NCBI GenBank assembly: GCA_000499405.2
Contig: HG738138.1
Location: forward strand, 20,809,753 to 20,873,752
DNA from: Onchocerca volvulus
Lineage: Eukaryota; Nematoda; Chromadorea; Rhabditida; Onchocercidae
Direction: 5' to 3'
DNA: 64,000 bases
Each line of letters begins with the position of its first letter. The first letter of the stretch is position 1. The notes under the pieces were generated by a model. It saw only the letters and a list, made by a program, of their open reading frames with translations, was not told where the DNA came from and did not search any database. This document shows positions 7,988 through 58,512 of the stretch, piece by piece. Both the position numbers and the translations under genes were made by a program.

Positions 7988-10900
7988 ATGCCACAATCAG
8001 GCGTATTGATCGATGGATTTATCGCGATCGATAAATTCCCGAGAGATTCTGCCATTGAGTATTATTTCCTAACTCATGCACACTCCGATCATTATGGTGC
8101 TATTGATGTAAGTTTTTGTAGTTGGCAGCTTCAACTGCTAAGGCATTTCAATGCTAATAAATTCGCTGCTTTTCGTTAATTTTTTGTATGCCGTAACTGG
8201 TTTTGTCGAAATTTTGCATAAAGATGGGAAAGGGACCTTTTAATTCGAAAAATAAGTTTGAATTATTTTCATAACTGATACTGACCTCGTATTAATGAAT
8301 CCGTATGCAACTATATACTCTTTGACCATTATTGATGGGTCATTAGGAATACAGCGCTGAAGTATTCTGATAAATGAATTATCATGTTAACAAATGAAGT
8401 ATAATAATAATTTTGTTAATATATATAGTGCTGAAATTATTGGAGATACTCTGTTTATAGTTTTCGTTTTCATTCGTTTTGACTGTCGGATTGCAGTTTG
8501 AATTTCAAATTTTGATTATTTCTAAAACGATTATCATTTACTAAGCTTAATAATACTGAATCTATACATTCATTCTTTATTACAGAATAAATGGAATAAT
8601 GGTACTATATACTGCTCACCTATAACAGCTCAGGTTCTCCCAATCGTTACTCATCATTCGAGATCAAAACGTGCTGGAATTAGAAGCCACTTAATTCATC
8701 CTCTGAACCTAAATGTTTGGCATCATATGAATGGCTTCTCAGTGATGCTGTTAGATGCAAATCATATCCCTGGTTCTGTTATGTTTCTCTTTGAAGGTGA
8801 TCGAATATCAGATAGTCGAATTCTTTTTACGGGTGATTTTCGAGCTGATATTCAACTTTATCAAAATATATTTGCGGTGTCAGTTTTGCAAGAGGTTAAT
8901 TTGCATTGAAATTTCTAAAGTTCTTTTGTTTTTCTTTTTGTATACACAGTGCATAGCAAAGTATATTAGTTTTATCATTTAATTGATAATAAAGCGAAAG
9001 ATGACAATTAAGTTTTATTTACATAGTAATATGTAGGGGCAAACAATTTTTTTAGAATTATATCTCCTATTCTGCTTTAAAATAAATTTATTTGAAGAGA
9101 AGTTATTGTGTTAATCTGCAAATAATTTATCTAGAGAAGTCTTAGCAAAATATATTTGGATACCACATATATTAATTGCACTCGAGAAGAATTTCCTAGT
9201 CGAGAAGCTTCAGCAGCTGAAATATGCCATCTTCTGCGTGAACTCTTTTTTAATGATTCTAAACCGGTAACGATTATGGTCCCGAAAGTTGGTCGTGAAC
9301 AATTACTTGTTGATATAGCGATGGAGTTCAAAGTAGGTGTATCAATTGCAAATATCAATTTTGTCTTTTTAATTAAAAGCATCTCAAAATTTATCTTGCT
9401 TTTTCAATTTTTTCAAAAGCATTCTGAAGCATATCGACAAAAAACAGAAAGGTTTGCTGACTTTTGCATGTTAATACTTTTTGCAGTGCAAGGTATGGGT
9501 TGATTATGTTCGCTTCCAAATAGCCGGAATTCTTGGATTAAATGAATATTTTACAACCGAGAAGGCAGAAACTTCTATTTGGACCTGTACAAGGCAGTAA
9601 GTAAAGTTAAATCCACTTATAGTAGAGGCTTCTGGCAGTATTTAGAATGAATAAATAAATAAAAAAATCTTTATATCTAGGAAATTAAATAATTTTTTTT
9701 TCTTTTTTTAATCTATATATCTAGAAAATTAGATTGATAAAAATTGCCACTTATGCCAAACTACCCATCAGGATAAAGTTGCTGACTGCTGAAATAATTT
9801 ATTGTATAAAGTTCGATTTGAGTTTCAAGATCATTTAATCCAGAAATATTCGTTCAATCCTGTACGATACGGATACTTATGTCATTGATGCCTCTATGTT
9901 ACGACATATCAAGTCGAATTCTGTCATTAAGTAAGAATAAATATATTTTTATTTTTGTGTATATGTATGCCCAATAACTGTATAATTCTGGAGAAAGCAT
10001 ATTGTTGTTTGTGGGAAATTCAACAGTGATAGAATGATATTAGCAGCTGGCTGATATCATTCTACAACCTGTCAATCAAATCAACATCAGCAAAACACTT
10101 GTCGAAAGAATTCTAGAAAGAAATTTAGAAATATTTTCAAAATTGGAATGTATTTGTCTTATGTTGAATTGCGTATTATGGTAATTAAACTTCCAGAAAT
10201 AAAAGGATGCGCTATATTGAATATTCGGATCACAGTAGCCCAAATGAAATACGTGATTTTCTTTCTCAGCTCTCATTTACCCAGATTATCGGACTGTCAG
10301 TGCAATTGTCAGAAAAACAGACTGAAGAACTTGAACGACTCAGTTTGACGGGTTTCAATGACGTATTAATAAGAACTGAAACTGATGAAGGCATCGATGA
10401 AAATGAATTATCTGCACTAGTTTCATCAGACATTCGGAGCAGGTTTTTTTTCTTTTTCTCTTTTTTGAAAGTTTTACTCTTTCTATTCACAAGTTTTTTC
10501 ATTTTGAAAATAAAAGAACAATAAATTGGATTTGACTTCAGAATTGGATTGGCTTGCGATCATGCACTGAGAAGTGTTTTTGATATTGAAATATTGCAAG
10601 GTCAGAAGGAAGAATCAAGTACTATTAACAAGTCTCAACTTGTAATAGATAAAGGAAATACAATTGTTTCTTCTGGTGTAACAATATTGGAAGTAGCTAT
10701 GCCAAGAAACATAGAAGATACTGGATTGTCGAATGAAATAGCTGCAAAATCAGATGAAAAGCTTCAAAGAGCTGGACAAGAAATTAAAAAAAACGCTGAA
10801 AATTTATTGAAAGCTATTGATAATGAGGATGATTATATTTTCAATTTGATAGTAAAAGAGATTACACGAACTGTTAATGTAGAAAATCTGGCAACACATA

Positions 10901-34235: not shown

Positions 34236-36100
34236 AATGCCTCGCAGAAGATCAAACTTAGGTCGTTGTACTCGAGCAACAAAAGTGATGCGATGATTAA
34301 TTGCAAATCAAACTGAGGAAAATTGGGCATCAGCAAACGAACAAAAAAGGCAAAGAATGGCTGAAATACGAGCAAAAACGTGCAGCCTGACTTGAGGATG
34401 CACGTGCACGCAACAACTTTAAATGAATCGATTTACTGAAGCTTCATTCGATGTAGAATTGCGTCGTGGACAAAAATTCAACACGGGTAATCTTTTGTCG
34501 TATCTGCAATCAAATATTCCTAAGCTAATGCTTGAACAAAAAGGCATTTACGATCAAATAATGCAAGCTGTGCGTAATTTTGTTCGCGGCATTTCTGCAA
34601 TACTTTTCTCATGCCGGATGTTTTGGAAATATTGCAGTGGGAGTTTCAATGAATTACATGTTCAATTGCAAAAAAAAATTTCAAAGCGGAATGAGCAGAT
34701 CTTCTATCTATAAACATTGTTGCAGCTTTTTGGACAGTGCAAGTGCGAAGACTACGTTAGTTCCTCCTGGGTTATATAAGATTTCTCGTTAGGTTGAAGA
34801 AATCTTCGTATATACGCCAGGAGGAACCGGTAAACGTACCTAACCAGATTGATTCTGGCAACAATTCGATCCCAAGATGATATGGTTTTAGCACTTGTAT
34901 CGTACGGAATAGCTGCAACATTGCTACCAAACAGATTTGCTCATTTTGCTTTGAAATTTTTTTATATGTAATTCATTGAAACTCTCACATGCAACATTTC
35001 CAAATCATCCGGCACGAAAAAATATTGCAAAAATGCAAACTTATTGTTTGAGATGAATGTACAATGGTGCATAAAAAATCGGTCGAGGCTTTTGATTGAT
35101 CATAGGAAGATTTGCGTGGAAATATCAGATCATTTGGGAACGTATTAGTATTGCTTGCAGAGATATCAGGCACACATTACCTATAATTCCTCGATCGACA
35201 CCAGCAGACGAAATAAATGCTTGCCTAAAATACTCTATTTTGTGGCGACACATAAAGATGTTGAAATCAGCTATAAATATGCGTTTCCAGCTGCAAAACG
35301 AGCGATCAGTTGGGATATTTTCACATCAATGGCCGGAAATTGGGAACGGAAAGGTCCGATTGATCTTCCTCAGGACGAATTTCATTGCCTCATAACTTCT
35401 GCAATTTAGTAAGGTGAAAAGGATTGGAAAAGTATTTCCCGATATTCAAACCAATTATAAGAATCACGATGACTGAGTGAATGAGCTATTCTTGCGGTCA
35501 AGAACAAAAGACGTCCACGAACTTGATAATATTATTCAGCTAACATTCAAAGCGAGGTAGTCATATTCAGGTCCGTTGACAATTTTATGGAAGCAGATGA
35601 AGCGGTTAATTATCCAACGGAATTTTTGAATTCACTCGGTCTGCTAAGAATGCCACCGCACGTATTGCAATTGACAATCAAAGTGCTGATTATCATATTG
35701 CGAAATATTAACCAGCCAAAATTTTGCAATGGCATGCGGCTTGCAGTAAAAAAAAATTAACGAGCGACGTCGTAGAAGCAACAATCTTGACAGGACCTTT
35801 CAAAGGTGAAGATGTCCTCATTCCTTGCATTCCCATGATTCCAACGAACATGCCATTTAAAAAGGGATTGCAGTTCCCATTTCGACTGGCTTGCAATTTC
35901 CATTTCGATTGGCGTTTGCAATCATCATAAAGTTTAGGGCCAATCTTTAAAATTGTGCGGTTTTGATCTAGACATGGATTGCTTCTCATATAGACAGTTA
36001 TATGTTGCGTGTTCTAGAATCGGCAAACTAATATCTATATCTACACAAATAATGGAACAACAAAAAATGTTGTATACTCACAAGCATTGTGAAATTAAAC
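34236..36100 (+). mobile_element. Second decayed Helitron (helicase remnant, plus strand)
   Basis: The left part reads MPRRRSNLGRCTRATKV, the typical arginine-rich start of nematode and arthropod Helitron RepHel proteins, then breaks down with stops. Helicase pieces follow: IYDQIMQAVRN (about 34540), a Walker A relic PGGTGK (about 34825) followed by a frame change, FAWKYQIIWERISIACRDI (35105-35170), WRHIKMLKSA (about 35260), and a C-terminal piece with [17 protein letters not shown] (about 35980-36030). This last piece is helicase motif VI. Numerous frameshifts and stops mean no protein is made. The Rep nuclease and most of the N-terminal half are missing. Order and orientation match the minus-strand remnant at 18.8-21.1 kb. 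Confidence 0.85.
34575..35040. repeat. Inverted duplication inside the Helitron remnant
   Basis: The sequence folds back on itself around 34795. GTTCCTCCTGGG...AAGATTTCT (34760-34790) is the reverse complement of AGAAATCTTCG...CAGGAGGAAC (about 34797-34830). Further out, TTTTGGAAATATTGCAGTGGGAGTTTCAATGAATTACAT-like sequence near 34620-34660 is mirrored near 34965-35010. Confidence 0.7.
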
Positions 36101-36237
36101 ATATTGGAAAAGTGAGCTTTCTCTTTTCTTTCTTTTGTGTCGACGAAAGCCGAAAGATGTCAAATAGCGCCACGACAATTTTTGCAAATAAGGAGTGCCA
36201 AAAGTCAACTGACGCGATACAGTTTCAAACGGATGAT

Positions 36238-36800
36238 AAACATGTTTGCCACCAAAAGGATAAATATATCTATTGCCAAAAGGTAAACATGTTTACCGCC
36301 AAAAGGGCAAACATATTGACTGCCAAAACGCTCCGATTCACAGATGAACAAAGTGAGGACCAATTGTGAAGTAGCATTTTAGAGATCAAATACGAGGGAA
36401 GAACCCCGAAAGGATTTAAAAGGTCAGGGTTTTGTAACAAAGGGTCAGTTCAAGTTCGACACAGTTCGGCGGTTCATTTGCAGCAGTTCCTACAATTTGA
36501 CAGTGGGAGCAGTTTCGAGGACAATTCAGTTGCAGCAAGAGCCACAGTTCAAATCTTATGAGTGACAATTCAACAGGAGCATTCCGCAGTGGTGGAGCAA
36601 GAAATACAGTTGCAAAGGGTAGATACGACAACGTAGTAAGCATTTAGATGACTGTTCGTACTCTGATTTTTTACTGTGTATTGTTCATTTAATCCTTACC
36701 TTACCACTGTATAAGCGCAATATTTCATATAATATCCTATAAACCAAATAAAGCCTATTGCTGACCTAATCGAATCACAATAGCAAGAAGGTCTTCAATC
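36238..36800 (+). repeat. LTR-like repeat, copy b, with minisatellite head
   Basis: The repeat begins with about four tandem 23-24 base units (36238-36333) built on AAACATGTTTACCGCCAAAAGG. CCGATTCACAGATGAACAAA, GTGAGGACC, CCCCGAAAGGATTTAAAAGG and GTCAG follow, then a leader with GTTCGGCGG and GCAGCAG, and a possible poly(A) signal AAATAAAGCC at about 36750. Promoter-like box, leader and poly(A) signal in this order suggest a solo LTR. No retroelement protein lies beside it. Confidence 0.45.
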
Positions 36801-45835: not shown

Positions 45836-48394
45836 GCAGTACAAGTTTCTGAGAATTGTTGTGAAATTCATTTTTACATGTTCAAGAGAAAACATTACTG
45901 GCCGCTATGGAATGTGCTCCTCATTATTAAGTTTCATTGTCGAAATTCATATTATATTGTTCACAAATAATTTTCTATACCATTATTCGTCGCATATGAC
46001 TGATCAAAAATGTTTAGTTTATATATATATATATATAGTAACTTTTAGTTTAATTCAAATTCTAAAAATCCAAAAAAATATCAAGATATAAAAGTTTTAA
46101 AAATGTAGGAATTAGAAAATCATTCAGTGCACATTTCTGATATTAACTTCGATCCAAAGCAGCAAATTCACATTGTTTGTTTTAATTAGTCTTAAACTAA
46201 ATAGGCTATGTTGTTTGTTAGAAGTATAAAAGAATTCATAGAAAATAATATAATAATTTCCAGAAGACAATAAATTTTCAGTTCGCGCACTGAGTGGTAG
46301 AAACTTTTTTTTCAAAGTGATGATCTCGATATATTATGTATGTACTTTGTCTTTGTATAAATGCAATAATTTAAAATTACTGCTCTTTCAAATAATCACT
46401 TTTGCTATGAAATGCCCCACTGTTTGGACGATTTTATACCGTGAAAATGTCGCTGTAATTGTTTAGGATTTTTTACACTTTGTTTTTGCTCATTTAAAAT
46501 ATCTGCAACGTTAGGTACACTTTTCAATGCATTTTTCTGCGATATTGTGCATTAACTTCAATTTCAGCAGCTTGATTTATGTTTTTTGTATTCGGAAAGT
46601 TGTGCCAAACTGCTTCGATGTAATTTCAGAGATTTGTCTGGCATATGGTCTAACATTTTTATGAAATTACATGGAATTAATTTTTAATGTTATTTTTTTC
46701 TTTTAAATATTAGATGTACTTTTTTTATTAGTCGGGAGTGTTGCTTAACTCTTATGATTTCAAAGCTGATAGTTATTGCAGGAACCAAACTTTGCAGTGT
46801 GATAAAGTGTGATAAAGTTGAGTTGGGCAATTTAAATTGCTAATAGTTGAGATCAAGAATAAGTTTTATCAATTTGGATGTTGCCAAGATTTTCTTTTCA
46901 TTAAGTTAATTGATGCTTTTTCATGCATTTACACCTCATTGTTAGATATTTCTATCCGTTTTTGTTTTTTGCTATGTTTTTCATTTCACTTTGTTGTCAG
47001 ATATCACTAACCTGGAATTATTTAAATAATTCAGATTCATTCCCGAGGTTTGATTGTTTATTCATGACGAAATCATTTCAAAAAACTTTGGATCCAAATC
47101 GGGCTTTTGATTTTTTGGGAAATCAGTCGATGTATAACGCTTTTGGCAGCAGAAATTGCACTGTTTACTTGTTCGTTAAATATAGAAATTTTTGTCCCTG
47201 TACTTCATTGTATTTTGAAATACATAATTTGAAGTGAAAACTGTGGTTTCATCATATTATAGTGCGGAACAAAATTCAGTTATTTAAAAAAAAAGAATTC
47301 GTTTTTATGCAATGCGTAATTCCCTGTTTAGAGATAATATCACGAAAAAAAGATGTGATAAACAAGTAGTATAAAAGATGAATGATTTGCAAGGAAGATT
47401 CGGAAGCGTTAAGATATATGAGAGCATTTTTTCTTTTTTGCTAATACGTAAAATGCGAATTCCGAGACGTTCTTGGAAGTGAAGTTCGTCAGTTAAATTC
47501 CGCAGATAAGAATTAGTAACGCGTCTCAAGCTAAGGAATATTCAAACTGAAGTCCAGTTGGTAATATTGACGGTGTGCTAACTGACATATACTATTTTTA
47601 AGAATGTAGTCCTGTAGAGAGAATGTTGTTAATTTAAATATAACTAGAAAGAGAACAGTTGGCTGAGAAGTGAGATCAGGAGAGCGTTATATGAAATGAC
47701 CAATCTAATACGGGATGATCCTTTCGTTCTTGCAATTTTTTTGATCGTTTTACCGCTACTATATTTTGCCTTTCGCTGTTCGAGTCTCCTCGAAATGTGA
47801 CAGAAGTTGAAGGTAAGAAGATCAGCACAGGTAGAGACGATGGTATTTCAAGACGGGCAGATTTGTAGGTTGAGTTGGCTGTTGGCCACTGTCATTTGTC
47901 ACCGTTCATAGATGCCATTGTGGAAGAATGATTTACGCGTGGATATAGTTTGAGGCTTGTTGGTCGACTGGAAATTTTGTTTTGGGGATAAAGATGAGGA
48001 ATTAACTTGCTAGCAGTTCACTGGAATTTGTTCGTAATATTTCAAAAAAAAAGAAAAGAATTAGGAAGGCTAAAACTTCTCTTCATGGGTGAAAAGGTTT
48101 AAACCGGAATGATCTTGGGCGATTAAGTTAGAGTAACGCTTTCTTTCATGCATCATTGAGAAGGATTCTGACTTTCTGATATATTACTTTTAAAACAAAT
48201 CAAAACAAAGATATAGTCACTCACTTCATTTGAATGACAAAAATTTTGAATTAAAATCTTAATCATATGAGGATCATTCGCTGTGAGGAAAAGAGTCAGT
48301 GAGAAAAAATGAAGAATAAGTACTTTTGATTTTATTTTGTTAGATAGTCTATTTTCGATTGGAAAATTAAGTGAATTTAAGTTAACAGTGAGAG
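45836..48394. other. Intergenic region, PAP to TASOR-like gene
   Basis: About 2.6 kb without a convincing exon. It holds the PAP 3' UTR on the left and a (TA)n run at about 46021-46037. The part from 47.6 to 48.4 kb is slightly richer in G and may belong to the promoter of the next gene. Confidence 0.45.
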
Positions 48395-48494: not shown

Positions 48495-48508
48495 TCTCAT
48501 TTTTGTAG
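48495..48508 (+). promoter_or_regulatory. Probable trans-splice acceptor before the TASOR-like start codon
   Basis: TCTCATTTTTGTAG ends four bases before the ATG at 48513. A pyrimidine-rich run ending in AG, with no upstream exon in view, is what a nematode spliced-leader acceptor looks like. Confidence 0.45.
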
Positions 48509-48512
48509 AGCA

Positions 48513-51500
48513 ATGCAACGAAATGATTTCTCTATCCCTCGAAAATTGCTAAACCAGACAAGTATGTTCCATTTCATCATTAATTTGTTATCATTCATTT
48601 GAGAGACTTAATCATGAATGTATTGAAAGGTCATAAATTGCCCAACTTTTGTCTAAGAGGATTAATTCTGCCATGAATTTTTGCGTATTATCATCCGGAA
48701 AAACTTCTTATGAAACAGTGTACGAATTTTACTGAAATCAAGCTAGGATTCATTTCAAAGCAGCAAAATTGAATTCAGTGGAAAGCGAATAATAAAACAT
48801 ATTTTTGTTTAATTAACCTGATGGAGAAATTGATGAAGTTTGCCATCTGAACAGGAACGGTCCATAAATAGTCTTTAATGAATTATCGTACTTAATCTTT
48901 TTGTTATTCCAGAAATGGATTTTTTTTTTTCATATATATATATATTTTTCCATATATATCCATATTAAAATGTTAAATTCACTTGAATTCTTTTCTAATA
49001 AGACTATTACTTATAACCAATTTATGCGCTTGAAGGCCTGTCTCAACATTACATAAGTGATATAGCCCTTAATTGCGAAGTGTTTCGAAATATATATCAA
49101 CAAGTTATTTTATCACATCTGTCAAACAGCCGTCAGGACCGAGAAGCGATTAGAATTGTCCGATGTAGAATAATATGCAATAAACAATTGGAAGCACGGG
49201 TAACAGTTATTTTTTCCATCGATCATGTATTTTGGTCCATTCTAGTTTCAATTACAATATTTTACAGCCTTCAGAAATATGATAAGTGTTCAGTAAAATT
49301 ACGATTATTTTCAAACAATTCATTTATCATATAAGAAAAGTATGATCCGAATGTGATACATTTCTGACCGTTTGAATTCTCTGATATTATACATGAAATT
49401 AATAAGAAAGAAGCATGAAAATCATATTGCGAAGTTATGGCAAATTCAGTTTTGCCATTCTTCAGTTTTCCAATTTTCAAAAGTCGCTGGAATCTCAATG
49501 GTTACCTTCTGATGTATCGTTTGGATACACTCTCCTCTCGGATAATCTACGAGAAGTAAGTTATCAAACTTTTATTTAATTATTTTTACGCTTTCTGGCC
49601 TGCAGAAGTGCTATTAATCGTCAGTATTTTCATTCCTTGCTCTTCGCTTTTCGGAAATTGAGCTAATCATATGAAATAGGCTACTTTTTGTTGTTGATGT
49701 AGAGATGAACATTTTTTCTTCTGTTTCATCTTATGCATTTGCAAGTTGCTTTAAAAGTATTGAAATTTAAAGAACCAATTTTTGAATAAACTAGACGGTG
49801 TAGTATTTTGTTATCATATCATTCATTATTTTCGATGACAAAACATTGACGAATTAATTTATTAACAAACAAATGGGTATTGTCAAAATCGAAACCCTCA
49901 CTTCAGGAATTAGTCGTTTAAGAATACTTAAATTTCCAACCTTTTCAGATGGAATTAATAGCACAATGGGGCCTATCTGTTAACAATAACTTCGTGGGGG
50001 ATTTGGGTGAACCAGCAAATGGTTAGTTTGTCCTTAGAATTCATAACATAATGATTAAAATAAATAATCTGGTTGAGAGTAAGTTTCTGCCCAACAATTC
50101 TGAGTATTTCCCAACTTTCTTACAGTTCTTTCTGACTAAATTTATTGTCTTTAACTGTAAAATCAAATCGATGAGAGTAAGTTGACAAAAAAAAACTCCC
50201 GAGTGTTCATTGGGCTATTGCTTTTTAACCACCAAGTATTATTACAAATTTTCTTCCTAGTATGACTTAAACAATACATATGCTAGGGAAACTTTGAACA
50301 AAGTGAAAACAGACTATAGTTATATAGCTTTTGTTAGAAAATCCCCCATACCGCATTATAATAAAACATTTTATATCAAAATATCTATTTGCAAATGTCA
50401 AATATTACATTACCAGTATTTTCATTATCAATTTTTTTTGTTTGCATTTAGGATTTATTTAGTTATATCTCATAATTTCTAGGTGTTTACTTGTCGGAAC
50501 ACCCCGATTTAGTTACGCCAGCACCATTTCTTGGACGAACCAAATTGAAGATCTTAGCTTGCAAAGTAAATACTACTATTTCGACTAATTTTTAACTCCT
50601 TTTGCTGTCTCCGTGCAGCAAATTTTCAAATACTTCAAGATCATTCATTTTATCATTTGGTATCTAAGCAAGGATATTATTCACATGCACCTGCGTAACT
50701 TGTGGATTGTCAATTGTTACGTTATGATAATTTTTTTAGATCTTAAAAGGCAAATGCAATATTGTTAGCTTGGGATCTTACCATTTGCTGCCTAAGCGAG
50801 GATATAATTCACATGCAGCTTTGCAACCAATGGACTGTAAATTATCACGACATGATAATTATCGGTGCGATCAGGTCGTGTTAAATTCTTCACTGTTTAT
50901 ATTTTGTGTAATAGATGAGTGGTCAAGAAAAATACTTTTCATTATCTTCTGCAAGACCAGTTCCCTTCATTTTTAAAATTTATCTGTAAATCGTCGTTCT
51001 CAATGATATATTTCATGCGATTTTTTTTTTTTTTTTTTTTTTTTTAGATTTTTTTATTCGAAGAGAAAGGAACTGGGTATTCCAAATCACCAGCAAATGT
51101 TTTACCTTTTGCCGTATACGATTTGGAATTCCCTCCGAATACGTAATTCTATTGATTCAATTTTTTTTTGTCTGACTAATTAATTTTTTTAATGCATTGT
51201 GCTAATACTACATTGCGCGATCAGTATGATTACGATTAAAACAGTATGTTTATTCAGAAATATGTAAACATAAACAATTTTTTAGACAATTCCCAATAGC
51301 ATACATATTTGTAAAGAAAGACTAAATCCTACTGGAACATAACTATGAACTATAGATATTCATAGAAAAACATTTCCATGAGTTTCAGCGTTTTATCATT
51401 CAAAGGAACGGATTCGGTTGTTTGGAGTGGTAATTTACTGATTGGAAATAAACGTTACAGTCGTGTCTCGCTGTGTTCATTAGCAGCAGCGACTAAGCCA

Positions 51501-52668
51501 CCATTACTGTTAGTTTATATTTCTACCAAATGATTTTGAGAAATTACTGAATGGATTGTATTCTTTTTATCCATGAATGCTTTCAGAAAAGTACTTTTTA
51601 GTTTAGAATTAGTTTTTTCATATATCTCTTACATAAATTCTCTGTATGAATGCATTTTTATCGTTCAGAGACACTTTCGAAATTACCGATCTTATTCACT
51701 GGACTGCATGCTTGGCTTTTCCACCAATTCTTGAACTGTTAAAACCGCCGGCTCTTGGAGAAATTGCTTTGAAAAAAGAGGTTGGAAAATTTAGCTAGAA
51801 TTTTGCAGAAGAAAATAGTATAAAATCATATAAGTTTTTTTAGGTACTTTTGACCGATTCTCAACGCTTGGTTTACTACTTTACATTGTTTTCTGAAGAT
51901 GATTCACATGATCTTGTTTTACTACACGAATCTATGAGAATAAAACAAGCGGTAGTGCTTCCTGATTTTTCTTATCTCGATTTTAATTATTCTTTTTTGT
52001 TTTACTCCTTCACTTAACAAAACTGAGACGAGTTCATTGGCATGATCAGCAAAATGGTCTCTTATAAATATATTTGTCAAAATGATCTGTTATAATAGAT
52101 CATTCTGATAAGTGATATTGTATTATAAAACACCTTAATTATTAAAATTGTGGTTTGATTTCTGTTGAACATCAAGCGATACGTGTTAAACTCTTCCTAC
52201 ATCATTGATTAGTTATTTCCAATCTCTTAGACTTAAGATTTAAATAATTTTGGTATATTGAAGCCGTAAGTTGAAATCTGGCTTGAAACCATCTCTATTT
52301 GATATTGATTCACATCTATTGATCAGTATGGCTTTTTTTCAGGCAGGTATAACGATCTTCCCATCTATTGGGATTTTCATTCTTTTGCCAAACGGGTTAT
52401 TCAGTGATTTATTAACGCTTCCTAAGACAACTGGCAGTATTTTCCATTGTTTGTATTTGACTTCCGATTTGAACTGTTCATTAATAAACGGTGCATTCGA
52501 AGCAATGTCGACGGACGAAAAGTTAGCTATTTTTTATCCAAATGTTGAATTTTAATTGTCAAAGATTGGAAGATTTTTAAGTGTTTAGTGTTTGATATAA
52601 AAATTTTGATCATCTTTTTTTTTAGAAGAAAATACACTTGCTACATGTGTGTAAAAGCAATGTAATAG

Positions 52669-52758
<90 letters not shown>

Positions 52759-55700
52759 TAGTGATGAGTTTATGAGGCCGTTGTTACTTCAAGAACGCAT
52801 CGATGGGTTGGATGTTCATGTTCAAGAACTGATACGAAATGTGGCTAGGAAAACTTCACTTTCTGAAGAAAATTCTGATAAATCAAGAATTCAAGGTGAA
52901 ATATCGAATGCAAGTTCCGGTAATTTTCATGTTACTCAGAAACATTAAAAGCTGTAGAAGAATGTAGAATTTTTTATTATCATGTCATTATTGTGCTTTT
53001 CTCCGTCCTTTTAAACTTCAAGAACTTAATGTGATAATTGTAAGAAAAAAAATGATCCATGTTGCATTACATTGAAGAAGCAATTGATATGGATATAGCG
53101 GACAGTGATGACGATGAAGAGAAGAGGGGATGGCATGATGAACATATGGACAAAATATTCGGGAAAGAAACACCCTCAAGAGAACATGTATGTTTGTATG
53201 AAATTTTATCATCGTATATCATCTTTTTATATATATTTCACTTTAATTTAATCGAACCTTCCGTTTTATTTTATTAATCATCAAAAAAAATTTCATACAA
53301 TTGACTTCCGCTGAAAACATGTTAATTTATTCACTTCTGAATAGATATGGTAAATGATTTACAAATTCACAAATATCATTTGAAAATGTTTAAATGAATG
53401 GGATGAATTACTAAATTGTGCGCAGAAAACTACATAATTTTTGGTAGTTTCATTTAATTTTTCAGCCAGTATCAACTCCAAGTTCAAAATTGAAGCTAAG
53501 TTCACCGCACTCAATTGGTGAAGCAGTTTCGAAAGATACACGGTTGCTTTCTTCTGATCCTCGACGTGAAAAGGTTTTCATCAATAGAGATCCAAGGAAA
53601 CGTCTCATTAACAGTCAAGATTTACCAATTCCATCATGTTCAGTCCTAAGACGAAAGATTTCAGATTCGAGTTCTTTACGTGAACACTCGGATGCTAAGA
53701 AAAAAGTAACTATTTTGAGTCCTTCTAGACATTCTTCTAAAACATTGAGTTATGTTTATTTCGAGTTCTAGAAAATCAGAGAATTTGATTTAATTTGAAT
53801 CGAGATGTGTTCTATTAAATCTAAATCCATTTGCTCAATAAAACATTTCAAGTTTTAATTAAGTCATTCAGTGGAATGAGATTTCACCAGCTTTTTTTCA
53901 GCCATCAGCTTCATCATCCGACTTACCTGCAACCGATTTTCATGGCTATTCACCATCAGATGCGATATCTAGCGGAGGGTCATCACCGAGAGGTGTATCA
54001 GAATCCCAAAGATCTCCTCCTAGCAGTTCTCCGAACTTCAAAGTATGTTCATCTTTCTTGAATTAAAATATCGAAACAGGAACCATCATTTTAATTATTC
54101 TTCAGCGGATTTACATCTATATATTTTGAATAAATTTTATGGATAATTAAAGTTTGGAATATTAAAATTGAATCATGGCTTTAATTATTTCTCAAAGAAT
54201 GAAATTGTATACTTTATTTTATAAATTTTCCGAAGGGAGTAATTACGGCAATAGCTATTTATATTTTCAATGGAAAATAATTTAAAAACTTTCAGGATAA
54301 CAACAGTACGGTACATGTTGGGAGTTTTTTGAGAAATGAGAGGTAAGTTTCTATTCTAAAACTATTTTAAATGTAGTGCTTTTGAGTTGATATCATTGCA
54401 AAGCAAGATGGATTACTATTCGCAAGCAATATTATGAAAAAATCTTGAAGTGCTTGGTTTTTGCATTAAAAAAAATATCAGAAGACAATGAACTTTTTGT
54501 ATTTAATTTTGAATTTTCCGAATTTCTTTAATACTTTTCAGTGAGTTTGATGATACTGAATCGCCTGCTAGTCCTCCCCATGAACCTGGTGTCTTCGTTG
54601 CTACTGCACCAAAGATTATTTCTGATTATGATATGCGGTCAACTACTGATGCTTCATTTCAAACGCCCGCTCGGCAGTATCGGGTACTTCCAGTTCTCAG
54701 TATTTTAGATATTTTGATTTGTATTTTAAAAGAATGGTCAGCAGAAAAATAAAAGTAAAGCATTTATTACCTAGCATAGAAAATTTTTGCTAGATTTGTG
54801 GTAGTTATTTATCTTCTATTTTTACATTATTTGTCATTAAGGAAGATTTTCTTCTTTTTTTGTAACAATCAAAATGTTAATACTACTAAAAATAATTCAG
54901 CTTTATTTAATAGCATCAAATCATGCAGCCATAAACCTAAAAAAATAATAAAATGAATATCTCAGATTTTTTACCAATCACTTATAATGGGTAGAACTAG
55001 TATTTTCAGCCTCCGGAAGTTACACCATTTACAGTTTTGGCATCAGTGGAAGCAATGAAGAATCCGGGACCATTGGTAGGGAATGTCAGTTTCCATTTAG
55101 ATTTCATTTCGGTCAAATCATGGACAGTTACGATTACAGCTGATTTTTGTCCTCAGTTAAATTTTCTGAAATTTCGACACACTATATCTTCTGGTTTCAG
55201 ATTGATAACAAGCATGAAAGTAAAACTGATTTTGAAGGAGCTCACTCACTATCAGTTCAGAGTAATGAGAATCTCATTATTAATGACGAACCTTCGTAAG
55301 AATATTTCGATTTATCTATTATTCCCTTCACATATGAATTTTTTTGCTATTCAAAGTCTTCGACACTTCGAAGTTTTTAACTTTTTCTGTGATTATTATG
55401 ATAAATTCATGCAGCTAATTGCAAATTATACTTGTCTGTTTAATTCATCGGCCATAGATTAAGGATTTGATTTATTTACCATAATTCTTTTGCTTTTTTC
55501 TTTTAAACACTGATTTCAAATTTGTCTCATCCTTTTTTATAAGACCGAGAATGATTAGGCCCATTAAGATTTTGTTTAGTTGTCATTTTCTGAAAAGCAG
55601 TATGAAATTTTTAGTTACATTTTGCCTGAACTGGTATCATTTTCACGTCATTCGATTCAAGAAAATCCAACTGAGAATAAAAAGGTTGATTTTCATTAGC

Positions 55701-58512
55701 AAAAAATATTTGTCTAAAAACTATTGTTTTGCTTAGCGGCAAAAATGTATGCTGAAAAGTCGTTTTATATTTACAAAAAGTATTAGTGTACAATAGGATA
55801 TGTGGAGCTTATTTCTTTATTTTGTTCCATGCTTTCAGAGTAATTCATCATTAAACCCTTCTCCACAACACTTGCAATGGGACATTCTTCCAAGCTCAAA
55901 AGTCGACAATCGAAACTTATCATTTTGGAAAACAAAAACTGAATCAGTAAGTAGCGGTGATGTGGACATGCGTACCATTCACACAGTCAGTTCTGTTCCA
56001 GACATTTCACGTGAAGTATAAGTTTTCATTTTTCAAGAGTAGATATAATTTAGATTGTGTCAAAACACTGGTAAGAAAATAGAAATTTAAATTTATCGAT
56101 ATATATATTTCGTCATTTGTTGCGGCTAGAACCTTTACAATTCTTTGATTTTTCAGCATGGAATAAAGTTGATATAATCATCTTCTTATAATGAAATGGT
56201 TAATTGGTACTAGAAAATGAAGGGAATAAATTAAATTTAGACGCCAAATTTGAGTTTGAGATCGTTACTTTTGTTTGAGTAACGGTGCTTGTGCGATGCT
56301 TGTTTTTTTGTTTGACAAACCAAAGAACGAAGTAGGCATATTTTATTACTGCTGTAATATTTTGAAGTATGGATTATTTTTATTTAATTTTATGGAATAA
56401 AATTCGTTAGAGACGTGGAATTAAATGAAATAAGTGGAAGAGTTATGCATGATGGAATATTATATGTGGAGTGAATTAATTTATTTTTAAAAAAAAAAAA
56501 AAAAGAAAGAAAGGAAAATAATTTGATTGCTAGGAAAAAGCTAACTAGTTAGTCGAGAAACTTTTTTTTTTTTTTTCATGCAATGGAGGAATACGAAAAA
56601 ATGAAATCTAACTGATAATATAACATAGACTTGAAAAGCCCTTTATAGGCAATAGCATCAACTACACATCATGTAACATCTGTTATGCAAGCACCGATTG
56701 TGTTCTCAAATGGCGATACTGATCATCGCATTATTTCATCAGCAGTTCGACCTTCAACTTCTGCACAGCCTCCTGAATGCTTTACAAATGAATCTAGTGG
56801 ACATTTCCACATACGTCCTTTTTCTTCATTTACTCCTCTTCCCTCCGCAGAAGCCCTTCAATATCATAATGCTTCTTCGACGTAGGTATTTTAATTTTTC
56901 GAAAAAATAATGTATTTGATATAATGCAGTTAAATTTCAAGCTATATGAATTGCTTCATCTTTCATTTTAGCAATTATACAACCGGATTTAAGCAGTCAC
57001 ACGTGTACGGTTTTTTCAATCGACCAACCATTCATCGCCAACCAAAACCGTATTATGCTCAAGATGTAAGAGTTTCACTGCTAGTTCGTCTAGAAAATTT
57101 TCATTAAATTTTTATGATAACTTAAGAGAGTTCAGATTATTTCCACCATTTATATTAAATAATGGCACTAGTTTTTTTTATTGTTTCTCAAAAATATTTC
57201 TTCAGACTATGGGTGGCAGTTCTTCAATAAACTTCCAAAAACGAGGGGTATTAATGATCGATGATGCTCAGTTTACAATTGGTGCTTTGTATGTATTTTA
57301 AAGACAGAAGTTGTTTGCTTTTGTTTTCTAAAAATATTTCTTCAGACTTGTAATCTTTCACAATTTTGATTATTTCCAATTCAATTTGAATATTTTATTG
57401 TATCATTGCTCAATTGTATAAGGCATTAATAGTTTCAGGGATCCAAAATTTTTCCGGATGATTCTAGAACGTTTTTCAAATTGGCGGAAGAATAGTTCTG
57501 TTTTATGGTGGGTCAAACTTCACGAACATCTTAGGCAAACTTTGACATCCGATAGGTAAGTTCTTGTTTCCAGCAAGCTGATAATATGAAGATTTTTTTT
57601 TCAACTGCAATTAATGATTGCATATTATTTTTTCATTCATCGATTTGTGGCTACAAGTTTCAGACATATCAGGAACTAGGAATGATCTTTTCTTACTTAT
57701 CTTATCCTCAATGATATAGTCTATCTTTTTAACTAGTAGCTACTGTGGTAAATGTTCTGCTGCATAATTGAAAAAAAAAACATAACATTGAGTTTGGCCA
57801 TGTGCTATATTTATTAAATTTGTTGTATTACTTCAAACTTTAGTATTCTTTATAAATAATATGCCGCCTCAATCTTCAAATTTAGCTTCCTTGTGGTTTT
57901 TTGAAATTTCGAAGTTTTCGAACTCTACTTCGCGCAAAAAAAAAAAAGGGAATCTTAGAAAGTAGGATAAAACTAAGTATTTAATTAAGTGTCTTAAATT
58001 TTCATTTAAGTGTCGCATCGAATTCAAATCCGAAAATAGTGGAAAAATATGCTCGTTATGAAGAAATAATAAAGGAATATGAAAATTTGAAAGTGATACA
58101 AACAATGAAATCACATGAATGTGACAGAAATAAGCATGATACGAATATACTGCTGAAATGTTTGAATCATACTGCAAATACGAATCGGAAGTGTTCTATG
58201 ATTTACTTAACTGGTAAGTTATATTTGGACATGGATTTTTTATTGAAATTATATTATTACATGCTTACGAATATGGATTGTAAAGATAATATTCTTTGTT
58301 TATTTGTATTTTGTTGCTTAATTTAAAAATTGCGTGCATTTCTTAGATTCTTTTTGGAAGAACTTAGACTTGTTCGAAATATTTTGTGGATATTGCATAT
58401 TTTTTTTCAAATTCCAGATATCGCAAAAGATTCTTTAATGGGCAAGCAAATATCAGACACAGGTTTTGAAATTTATTGCTGTGCGGAATTGTCGAAAAAA
58501 TTCGATATTTGA
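48513..58512 (+). CDS. TASOR-like protein (DUF3715/pseudo-PARP plus SPOC domains)
   Basis: TASOR is the core of the vertebrate HUSH complex, which silences transposons and intronless inserts through H3K9 methylation. Twenty-seven exons from 48513-48561 to 58418-58512 join in phase to about 1060 residues. Residues 1-230 (exons 1-7, to 51142) resemble the TASOR pseudo-PARP domain: FSIPRKLL at the start, then GEPANGVYLSEHPDLV, ILACKILKGKC and SPANVLPFAVYDLEF. Residues 231-410 (51389-52543) look like the SPOC domain: VVWSGNLLIGNKRYSRVSL and, at its end, GIFILLPNGLFSDLLTLP. An acidic DIADSDDDEE segment and a Ser/Pro/Arg-rich low-complexity middle follow. A short conserved-looking C-terminal block (RGVLMIDDAQFTIGAL...VLWWVKLHEHLRQ) spans 57206-57555. 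Least certain are the end of exon 52343-52543, the 23-base exon 52626-52648 and the last exon. Exons 53639-54908 have a broken duplicate at 37443-38610. Confidence 0.72.
50652..50735 (+). repeat. Degraded duplicate of an exon of the TASOR-like gene
   Basis: CTAAGCAAGGATATTATTCACATGC, then TTGTGGATTGTCAATTGTTACG and TATGATAATT, align with 50778-50862 inside exon 50740-50874. The copy lies in the intron immediately upstream (50566-50739), has an in-frame TAA and lacks splice sites. Confidence 0.85.
52672..52757 (+). repeat. Long poly(T) tract directly before an exon
   Basis: About 86 bases of T interrupted only by AAA, ending in GTAG, the acceptor of exon 52762-52919. The length may be unreliable in any assembly. 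A similar shorter T tract (about 51021-51045) precedes exon 51048-51142. Confidence 0.85.

Follow-up and report, generated by a model that had tools for sequence, protein, structure and literature searches.

Whether the human silencing hub (HUSH), known mostly from work on vertebrate cells, has a counterpart in nematodes is the question raised by a locus in Onchocerca volvulus. The locus lies in a window of 64,000 nucleotides (contig HG738138.1 of assembly GCA_000499405.2, positions 20,809,753 to 20,873,752 of the forward strand; coordinates below are those of the window unless marked otherwise), where a preliminary description had proposed that in-phase joining of exons gives one protein resembling TASOR, with FSIPRKLL at its N-terminus, a pseudo-PARP-like region and a SPOC-like domain ending in GIFILLPNGLFSDLLTLP. 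Our comparisons of the joined protein with profiles, structures and relatives firmly support a nematode TASOR-family protein in which a pseudo-PARP and a TASOR-type PIN domain are encoded by one gene of 27 exons. This gene is probably the filarial orthologue of TASOR and, as such, would provide the scaffold for silencing by a HUSH-like complex.

The gene and its recognised domains

Joining the exons by hand gave a first model of 26 exons and 1073 amino acids, in phase throughout and with a single stop at its end. Comparison with relatives by tblastn added exon 55615-55684 and shifted a few exon ends, resulting in a final model of 27 exons and 1095 amino acids in which 26 of 26 introns are GT-AG and the frame is open from the ATG at 48513 to the stop ending at 58512. 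The single protein proposed earlier is thus borne out over exactly this span, and FSIPRKLL and GIFILLPNGLFSDLLTLP were found in exons 1 and 11, respectively. An independently annotated O. volvulus protein (A0A8R1TWV8) showed 0 mismatches and 43 gap positions against a near-final 26-exon model, and 10 further nematode proteins found in a protein search with the hand-made model cover 85-100% of the query; because of these matches the gene model is not a product of chance. Its parts are as follows.

48513..58512, + strand: TASOR-family gene, whole coding span, 27 exons, 1095 amino acids, ATG to stop
48513..48561, + strand: exon 1, N-terminal motif MQRNDFSIPRK, in common with NFQIPRK of fish TASOR
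49036-49199, 49466-49555, 49949-50021, 50483-50565, 50740-50874, 51048-51142, + strand: exons 2-7, pseudo-PARP (DUF3715), from Pfam and 6tl1_A
51389-51508, 51669-51780, 51844-51951, 52343-52521, + strand: exons 8-11, presumed SPOC ending in GIFILLPNGLFSDLLTLP (exon 11), its start aligned
52762..52919, + strand: exon 12, conserved, predicted-helical segment DEFMRPLLLQERIDGLDVHVQELIRNVA, from the nematode alignment and low-confidence models
53078-53187, 53466-53705, 53902-54042, 54296-54342, 54542-54683, 55010-55084, + strand: exons 13-18, linker
55201-55295, 55615-55684, 55839-56015, 56649-56881, 56972-57065, + strand: exons 19-23, linker
57206-57288, 57439-57555, 58011-58213, 58418-58512, + strand: exons 24-27, C-terminal PIN_TASOR

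The strongest single piece of evidence from the sequence comparisons is the match of Pfam PIN_TASOR to residues 922-1071 of the 1073-residue model (expect value (E) 6.1e-30, 104 bits, cut-off 27), a domain that had gone unnoticed in the preliminary description. Pfam DUF3715 matched residues 100-178 of the same model with E 9e-6 and 26.2 bits, 2.3 under its cut-off of 28.5, and the solved PARP domain of TASOR (6tl1_A) matched residues 59-235 with E 1.5e-7. The latter was the sole PDB match at E up to 1 in a sequence search with the N-terminal 414 residues, and rose to E 8.2e-12 when a profile of 11 nematode proteins was used, in agreement with the pseudo-PARP-like region first proposed. On the basis of the 6tl1 alignment this domain is assumed to be a pseudo-enzyme; in human TASOR the NAD+-binding and catalytic residues of the pseudo-PARP are described as lost (PMC7532188). 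When five single open reading frames were scanned in Pfam, one TASOR match was returned, at the PIN exon (PIN_TASOR E 8.2e-5, 22.8 bits, below the cut-off), and the pseudo-PARP and SPOC-like frames scanned singly gave no DUF3715 or SPOC match. Another of the five gave an irrelevant weak match (E 0.12).

Could the locus be a decaying pseudogene, kept near transposons? A decayed duplicate of exon 6 is present in intron 5, outside the mRNA model, with 57% identity to residues 167-194 of the Onchocerca flexuosa protein (tblastn), and records an ancient duplication of this exon in tandem:

50651..50734, + strand: decayed duplicate of exon 6, with one in-frame stop in the middle of the copy

The 27 exons themselves, however, contain no stop or frameshift, and many columns are invariant among the 11 nematode proteins, so that decay of the gene as a whole is extremely improbable.

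Several observations concern the flanks and introns of the gene. Directly 5' of AGCAATG, TTTTTGTAG at 48500-48513 (+ strand) could be a spliced-leader acceptor for exon 1. Further upstream, 47089-47226 (+ strand) has 62.5% identity to residues 28-75 of the Dirofilaria 'Protein TASOR' model (E 2.5e-8), possibly as a conserved upstream exon, as part of another gene or through a mis-joined model. Intron 11 contains an 86-base T-rich run with an AAA interruption (52672-52757), which abuts the acceptor of exon 12.

Relatives within and beyond the nematodes

The protein searches scored only the 7,989-7,995 candidates with most words in common with the query. Twelve matches were listed, 11 of them from nematodes (two Onchocerca, Loa, Dirofilaria, Brugia, Elaeophora, Wuchereria, Setaria, Acanthocheilonema, Cercopithifilaria and Thelazia; 51-94% identity) and the twelfth being TASOR of the fish Alosa (E 5.5e-4). 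Since the candidates scored were limited, it is uninformative that Caenorhabditis, Ascaris and other nematodes are missing from the TASOR lists. The database names of the 11 are 'Protein TASOR' (one, from Dirofilaria immitis), 'TASOR PIN domain-containing' (four), 'DUF3715 domain-containing' (five) and hypothetical (one). A search with the nematode profile listed 16 matches, five of them non-nematode: three fish TASOR or TASOR-like proteins (best E 1.5e-9), one fish hypothetical protein and one further protein (E 8.9e-10), all with DUF3715, TASOR_alpha-beta and PIN_TASOR. Together with Alosa TASOR, these five form the comparison set used below (n=6).

Profile-profile alignment with the comparison set gave one alignment over residues 2-282 (271 columns, E 9.2e-14), which starts at NDFSIPRK versus NFQIPRK and ends within the presumed SPOC, past VWSG-L. 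In the comparison of full-length profiles the PIN part was weakly aligned (78 columns, E 0.12), and slices of the PIN domain alone aligned over 138 columns (E 0.0062). With DUF3715, PIN_TASOR and fish relatives carrying the TASOR domain set, the proposal of a TASOR-like protein in a nematode stands.

DUF3715 is common to TEX15, TASOR and TASORB (PMC10578480), and a DUF3715 protein of the TEX15 type would share the pseudo-PARP region with the filarial protein. Such an identity is highly improbable given the TASOR-type PIN at E 6.1e-30, the lack of any TEX15 domain at E up to 10, non-nematode relatives that, as listed, are TASORs or hypothetical or unnamed proteins with the TASOR domain set, and the description of TEX15 as vertebrate-specific (PMC10578480).

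The same domain counts bear on whether two neighbouring genes, one with the pseudo-PARP (and SPOC) and the other with the PIN domain, were joined in our model. Automated models of the relatives disagree at several exon ends, and the precomputed Pfam annotation gives both DUF3715 and PIN in only five of the 11 nematode relatives, with PIN alone in five and neither in one. Rescanning with Pfam at E up to 10, in contrast, gave DUF3715 in 11/11 (best E 1.9e-6) and PIN_TASOR in 10/11, the likely relative without it being P0010, whose model lacks the PIN region. Both domains occur within one protein in 6/6 comparison TASORs, and a single frame runs across the 27 exons; fusion of two genes in the model is very unlikely.

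TASOR-like proteins are described as occurring throughout metazoa and as being defined by DUF3715-SPOC-DomI, with DomII and PIN placed in the vertebrate architecture (PMC10578480). The filarial protein shares with these invertebrate proteins a TASOR-type DUF3715 beyond vertebrates and differs from the definition in that PIN is present and SPOC-DomI is putative. The text of that paper makes no mention of nematodes, though its Figure 2 may include them. Because of this publication, and because databases already list a 'Protein TASOR [Dirofilaria immitis]', neither the occurrence of TASOR beyond vertebrates nor the older origin suggested in the preliminary description is new. Among the texts listed in the open PubMed Central (PMC) library, mostly judged from title and start of abstract, none appeared to treat HUSH, TASOR or periphilin as a means of silencing in nematodes; a few, such as PMC7354471 and PMC12294990, contain TASOR and 'elegans' or 'nematode' as passing mentions.

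Elsewhere in the window, an open reading frame at 35938-36369 (+ strand) has a motif resembling the C-terminus of helicases of the Helitron/PIF1 type and is probably a decayed transposon. A second, at 8526-8909 (+ strand; LLDANHIPGSVMFLFEG...ILFTGDFRAD), resembles an SNM1/Artemis-type nuclease.

SPOC, DomI, DomII and the linker

Vertebrate TASOR and the filarial protein have in common the F-IPRK motif, DUF3715, the VWSG-L start of SPOC, a long linker and a C-terminal PIN_TASOR. They differ in length, the filarial protein having ~1095 residues against 1702-1875 in the comparison set (human TASOR has 1670; PMC7532188), and in the regions between the pseudo-PARP and PIN domains, where DomII is undetected and DomI and the periphilin-binding helices are unrecognised in the nematode proteins. 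Because DomII is undetected in nematodes, we file the filarial protein as TASOR-like and not as a vertebrate-type TASOR.

The SPOC-like domain of the preliminary description agrees with TASOR in its position and in its first strand (VWSG-L), and the rest of the domain, up to GIFILLPNGLFSDLLTLP, is presumed. Local hhalign comparison matched 40/215 columns ('VWSG-L...') to the start of TASOR SPOC with E 0.0013 (reversed control 0.48; global E 0.67); the comparison ran beyond SPOC, and no alignment was obtained past the SPOC start, the DomI zone included. Pfam SPOC at E up to 10 matched 0/11 nematode proteins and 0/6 comparison TASORs, and the test is therefore blind; of the profile searches proposed for the joined protein, the one for DUF3715 was positive, under its cut-off, and the one for SPOC was negative in this blind sense. 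Exon 12, which sits at the place of DomI, encodes a segment strongly conserved across the 11 aligned nematode relatives and helical in low-confidence models, and we regard it as a candidate DomI remnant or partner-binding helix.

Structure prediction, also proposed earlier, was partly usable in the PIN region and too low in confidence for the pseudo-PARP and SPOC parts. For the O. volvulus relative, AlphaFold2 models built from 11 nematode sequences had a mean predicted local distance difference test score (pLDDT) of 29.3, and of 33.8 when the six comparison TASORs were added, with usable values in part of the PIN region only and ~30 across the presumed SPOC. Foldseek with the low-confidence AlphaFold2 model returned no match below E 0.001, and 6tl1 and SPOC structures were absent among the matches listed, which may be because the N-terminus was modelled at low confidence.

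The central linker (exons 13-23, 53078..57065) is serine-rich and presumably disordered, with conserved islands. Within it the pattern D-x-D-[LMHY]-R recurs:

54624..54638, + strand: linker motif DYDMR
55959..55973, + strand: linker motif DVDMR
56715..56729, + strand: linker motif DTDHR

Three copies are present in seven of the eight nematode proteins counted and two in Thelazia (P0006, P0009 and P0010 of the 11 were left out of the count), and five of the six comparison TASORs carry two copies, the sixth one. Shuffling gives an expectation of 0.03-0.05 per protein, a figure that overstates significance, the pattern having been chosen post hoc. The only hhalign match between nematode and comparison linkers, of 18 columns, falls at the DxDxR motif (E 0.42). 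The recurrence is a small new observation in the sequences and, because the pattern was picked after inspecting them, a lead only.

Partner genes and a possible filarial HUSH-like complex

Human TASOR is reported to bind MPP8 via DomI and Periphilin via the central linker (PMC7532188), and the partners were sought by an exon-by-exon profile search of the same genome (94.7 Mb, 115 contigs). Periphilin_C gave one match (C2:20973590-20973745, 43 bits, cut-off 27); scanned by itself, this exon scored 44.8 bits, and its best PDB match was Periphilin-1 (6swg_A, E 1.1e-6), the next being unrelated (0.13). At C2:20966254-20970165 (L025 2255-6166), 5' of the Periphilin_C exon and on the same strand, lie an exon resembling an RNA recognition motif (RRM) and exons rich in arginine and serine (RS); one of five upstream open reading frames matches RRM_1 below threshold (15.2 bits against a cut-off of 20.7), and it is possible that the RRM and the periphilin C-terminus belong to a single gene.

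The chromodomain search gave 10 matches, of which the surroundings of five loci were taken and the open reading frames of two were read. A strict ankyrin pattern returned nothing on the five loci, including the C8 region that holds ankyrin repeats, the pattern being too strict, and reading of the frames revealed the ankyrin exons at C8. The resulting MPP8-like gene (C8:102430-107192, chromodomain match at C8:102862) has 12 exons and 700 codons in phase with GT-AG introns, and encodes a chromodomain (Chromo, residues 31-81, 51.4 bits) and ankyrin repeats (residues 578-664; Ank_2 29.3 bits, Ank 28 bits), an order of chromodomain then C-terminal ankyrin repeats that is also the arrangement of human MPP8 (PMC7532188). 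Among the 17 relatives listed, which range to Gnathostoma and Syphacia, 14 are named proteins of nematodes; the best comes from O. ochengi (100% over 85%), and two, from Dirofilaria and Toxocara, are named 'M-phase phosphoprotein 8'.

The search for MPP8 and periphilin partners was thus positive on both counts, and likely counterparts of the other core subunits of HUSH are present, which would not be expected if the TASOR gene were a lone relic. It is through these two genes that the label 'HUSH component' is supported, indirectly and at the level of sequence, for the filarial protein.

Several results weigh against a filarial HUSH scaffold. DomII (TASOR_alpha-beta) was found by Pfam at E up to 10 in 0/11 nematode proteins versus 6/6 comparison TASORs. 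SPOC and DomI, neither of which human TASOR can do without, are candidates only in the filarial protein, and the profile and linker comparisons recovered nothing in nematodes equivalent to the helices (residues 1014-1095) with which human TASOR binds Periphilin. No vertebrate MPP8 is among the 17 MPP8-like matches listed, and a further relative from Dirofilaria carries the name 'Chromobox protein'. As, in addition, the chromodomain matches PDB chains of MPP8 and CBX5 equally well, the MPP8 identity rests on architecture and appears less firm than the TASOR and periphilin identities. Lastly, Tudor_5, Morc6_S5 and Pre-SET, sought for the HUSH effectors SETDB1 and MORC2, gave no match in the exon-wise search, which returned nothing for DUF3715 in a genome where the gene is present; since this search misses short exons, the SETDB1 and MORC negatives say little. 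Three HATPase_c_3 matches were set aside as not MORC, their sequences reading as Hsp90, MutL and Hsp90-like; one MBD match presumably resembles the BAZ2-type MBD more than that of SETDB1.

That DomII and the periphilin-binding helices went undetected would fit a TASOR orthologue that works outside HUSH in a different RNA-guided pathway of filariae, perhaps as a WAGO/22G adaptor resembling RNA-induced transcriptional silencing (RITS) or as a PIN-based RNA-decay factor. The filarial PIN domain is kept and resembles that of Chp1 in RITS of Schizosaccharomyces pombe, whereas human TASOR lacking DomII/PIN still silences a reporter (PMC7532188). Moreover, Brugia, of clade III, is reported to have 22G-RNAs, and RRF-3-like RNA-dependent RNA polymerases (RdRPs) to occur throughout nematodes (PMC6468775). 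The MPP8-like and Periphilin_C genes in the same genome would, however, be unexpected had the HUSH complex dissolved, and a role outside HUSH seems unlikely.

With the gene taken as the TASOR of a HUSH-like complex, a mechanism can be outlined. The genes and domains are observed; assembly, RNA sensing, methylation and targets we infer from human HUSH. Nascent RNA would be sensed by the periphilin-like protein, TASOR would link this protein to the MPP8-like one, and the chromodomain of the latter would read histone H3 lysine 9 (H3K9) methylation. The complex would then recruit an H3K9 methyltransferase, and DNA that is transcribed, rich in repeats, intronless or foreign would be silenced. The pseudo-PARP, though without catalytic activity, would be needed for targeted methylation, and the PIN domain would act as an accessory, as it does in Chp1; in the human reporter assay, DUF3715, SPOC and DomI were needed for silencing and DomII/PIN were dispensable (PMC7532188).

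The partner set makes the finding more interesting than a TASOR gene alone. Onchocerca belongs to clade III. PRG-1-like Piwi and 21U-RNAs are described as largely absent outside clade V, clade III is reported without PRG-1 homologues, and 22G-RNAs target transposons in Brugia (PMC6468775); vertebrates encode no RdRP, a point raised in the HUSH literature (PMC11754731). We put forward as a tentative and rather doubtful proposal that clade III filariae run a complete HUSH (TASOR, MPP8-like and periphilin-like) alongside RdRP-made 22G small RNAs. If true, such worms would be intermediate between yeast RITS, with its PIN-bearing scaffold and RdRP, and vertebrate HUSH, which has no RdRP, and HUSH would be one system restraining transposons where Piwi-interacting RNAs are gone. 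With DomII undetected and PIN kept, the filarial protein raises the question of which parts of TASOR are dispensable, and its genome that of whether one animal can combine HUSH with RdRP-based silencing. How old the complex is can be put to the test now that each of its three core subunits has a recognisable version in a nematode, and mobile DNA of filarial worms may be kept silent by a HUSH-like complex.

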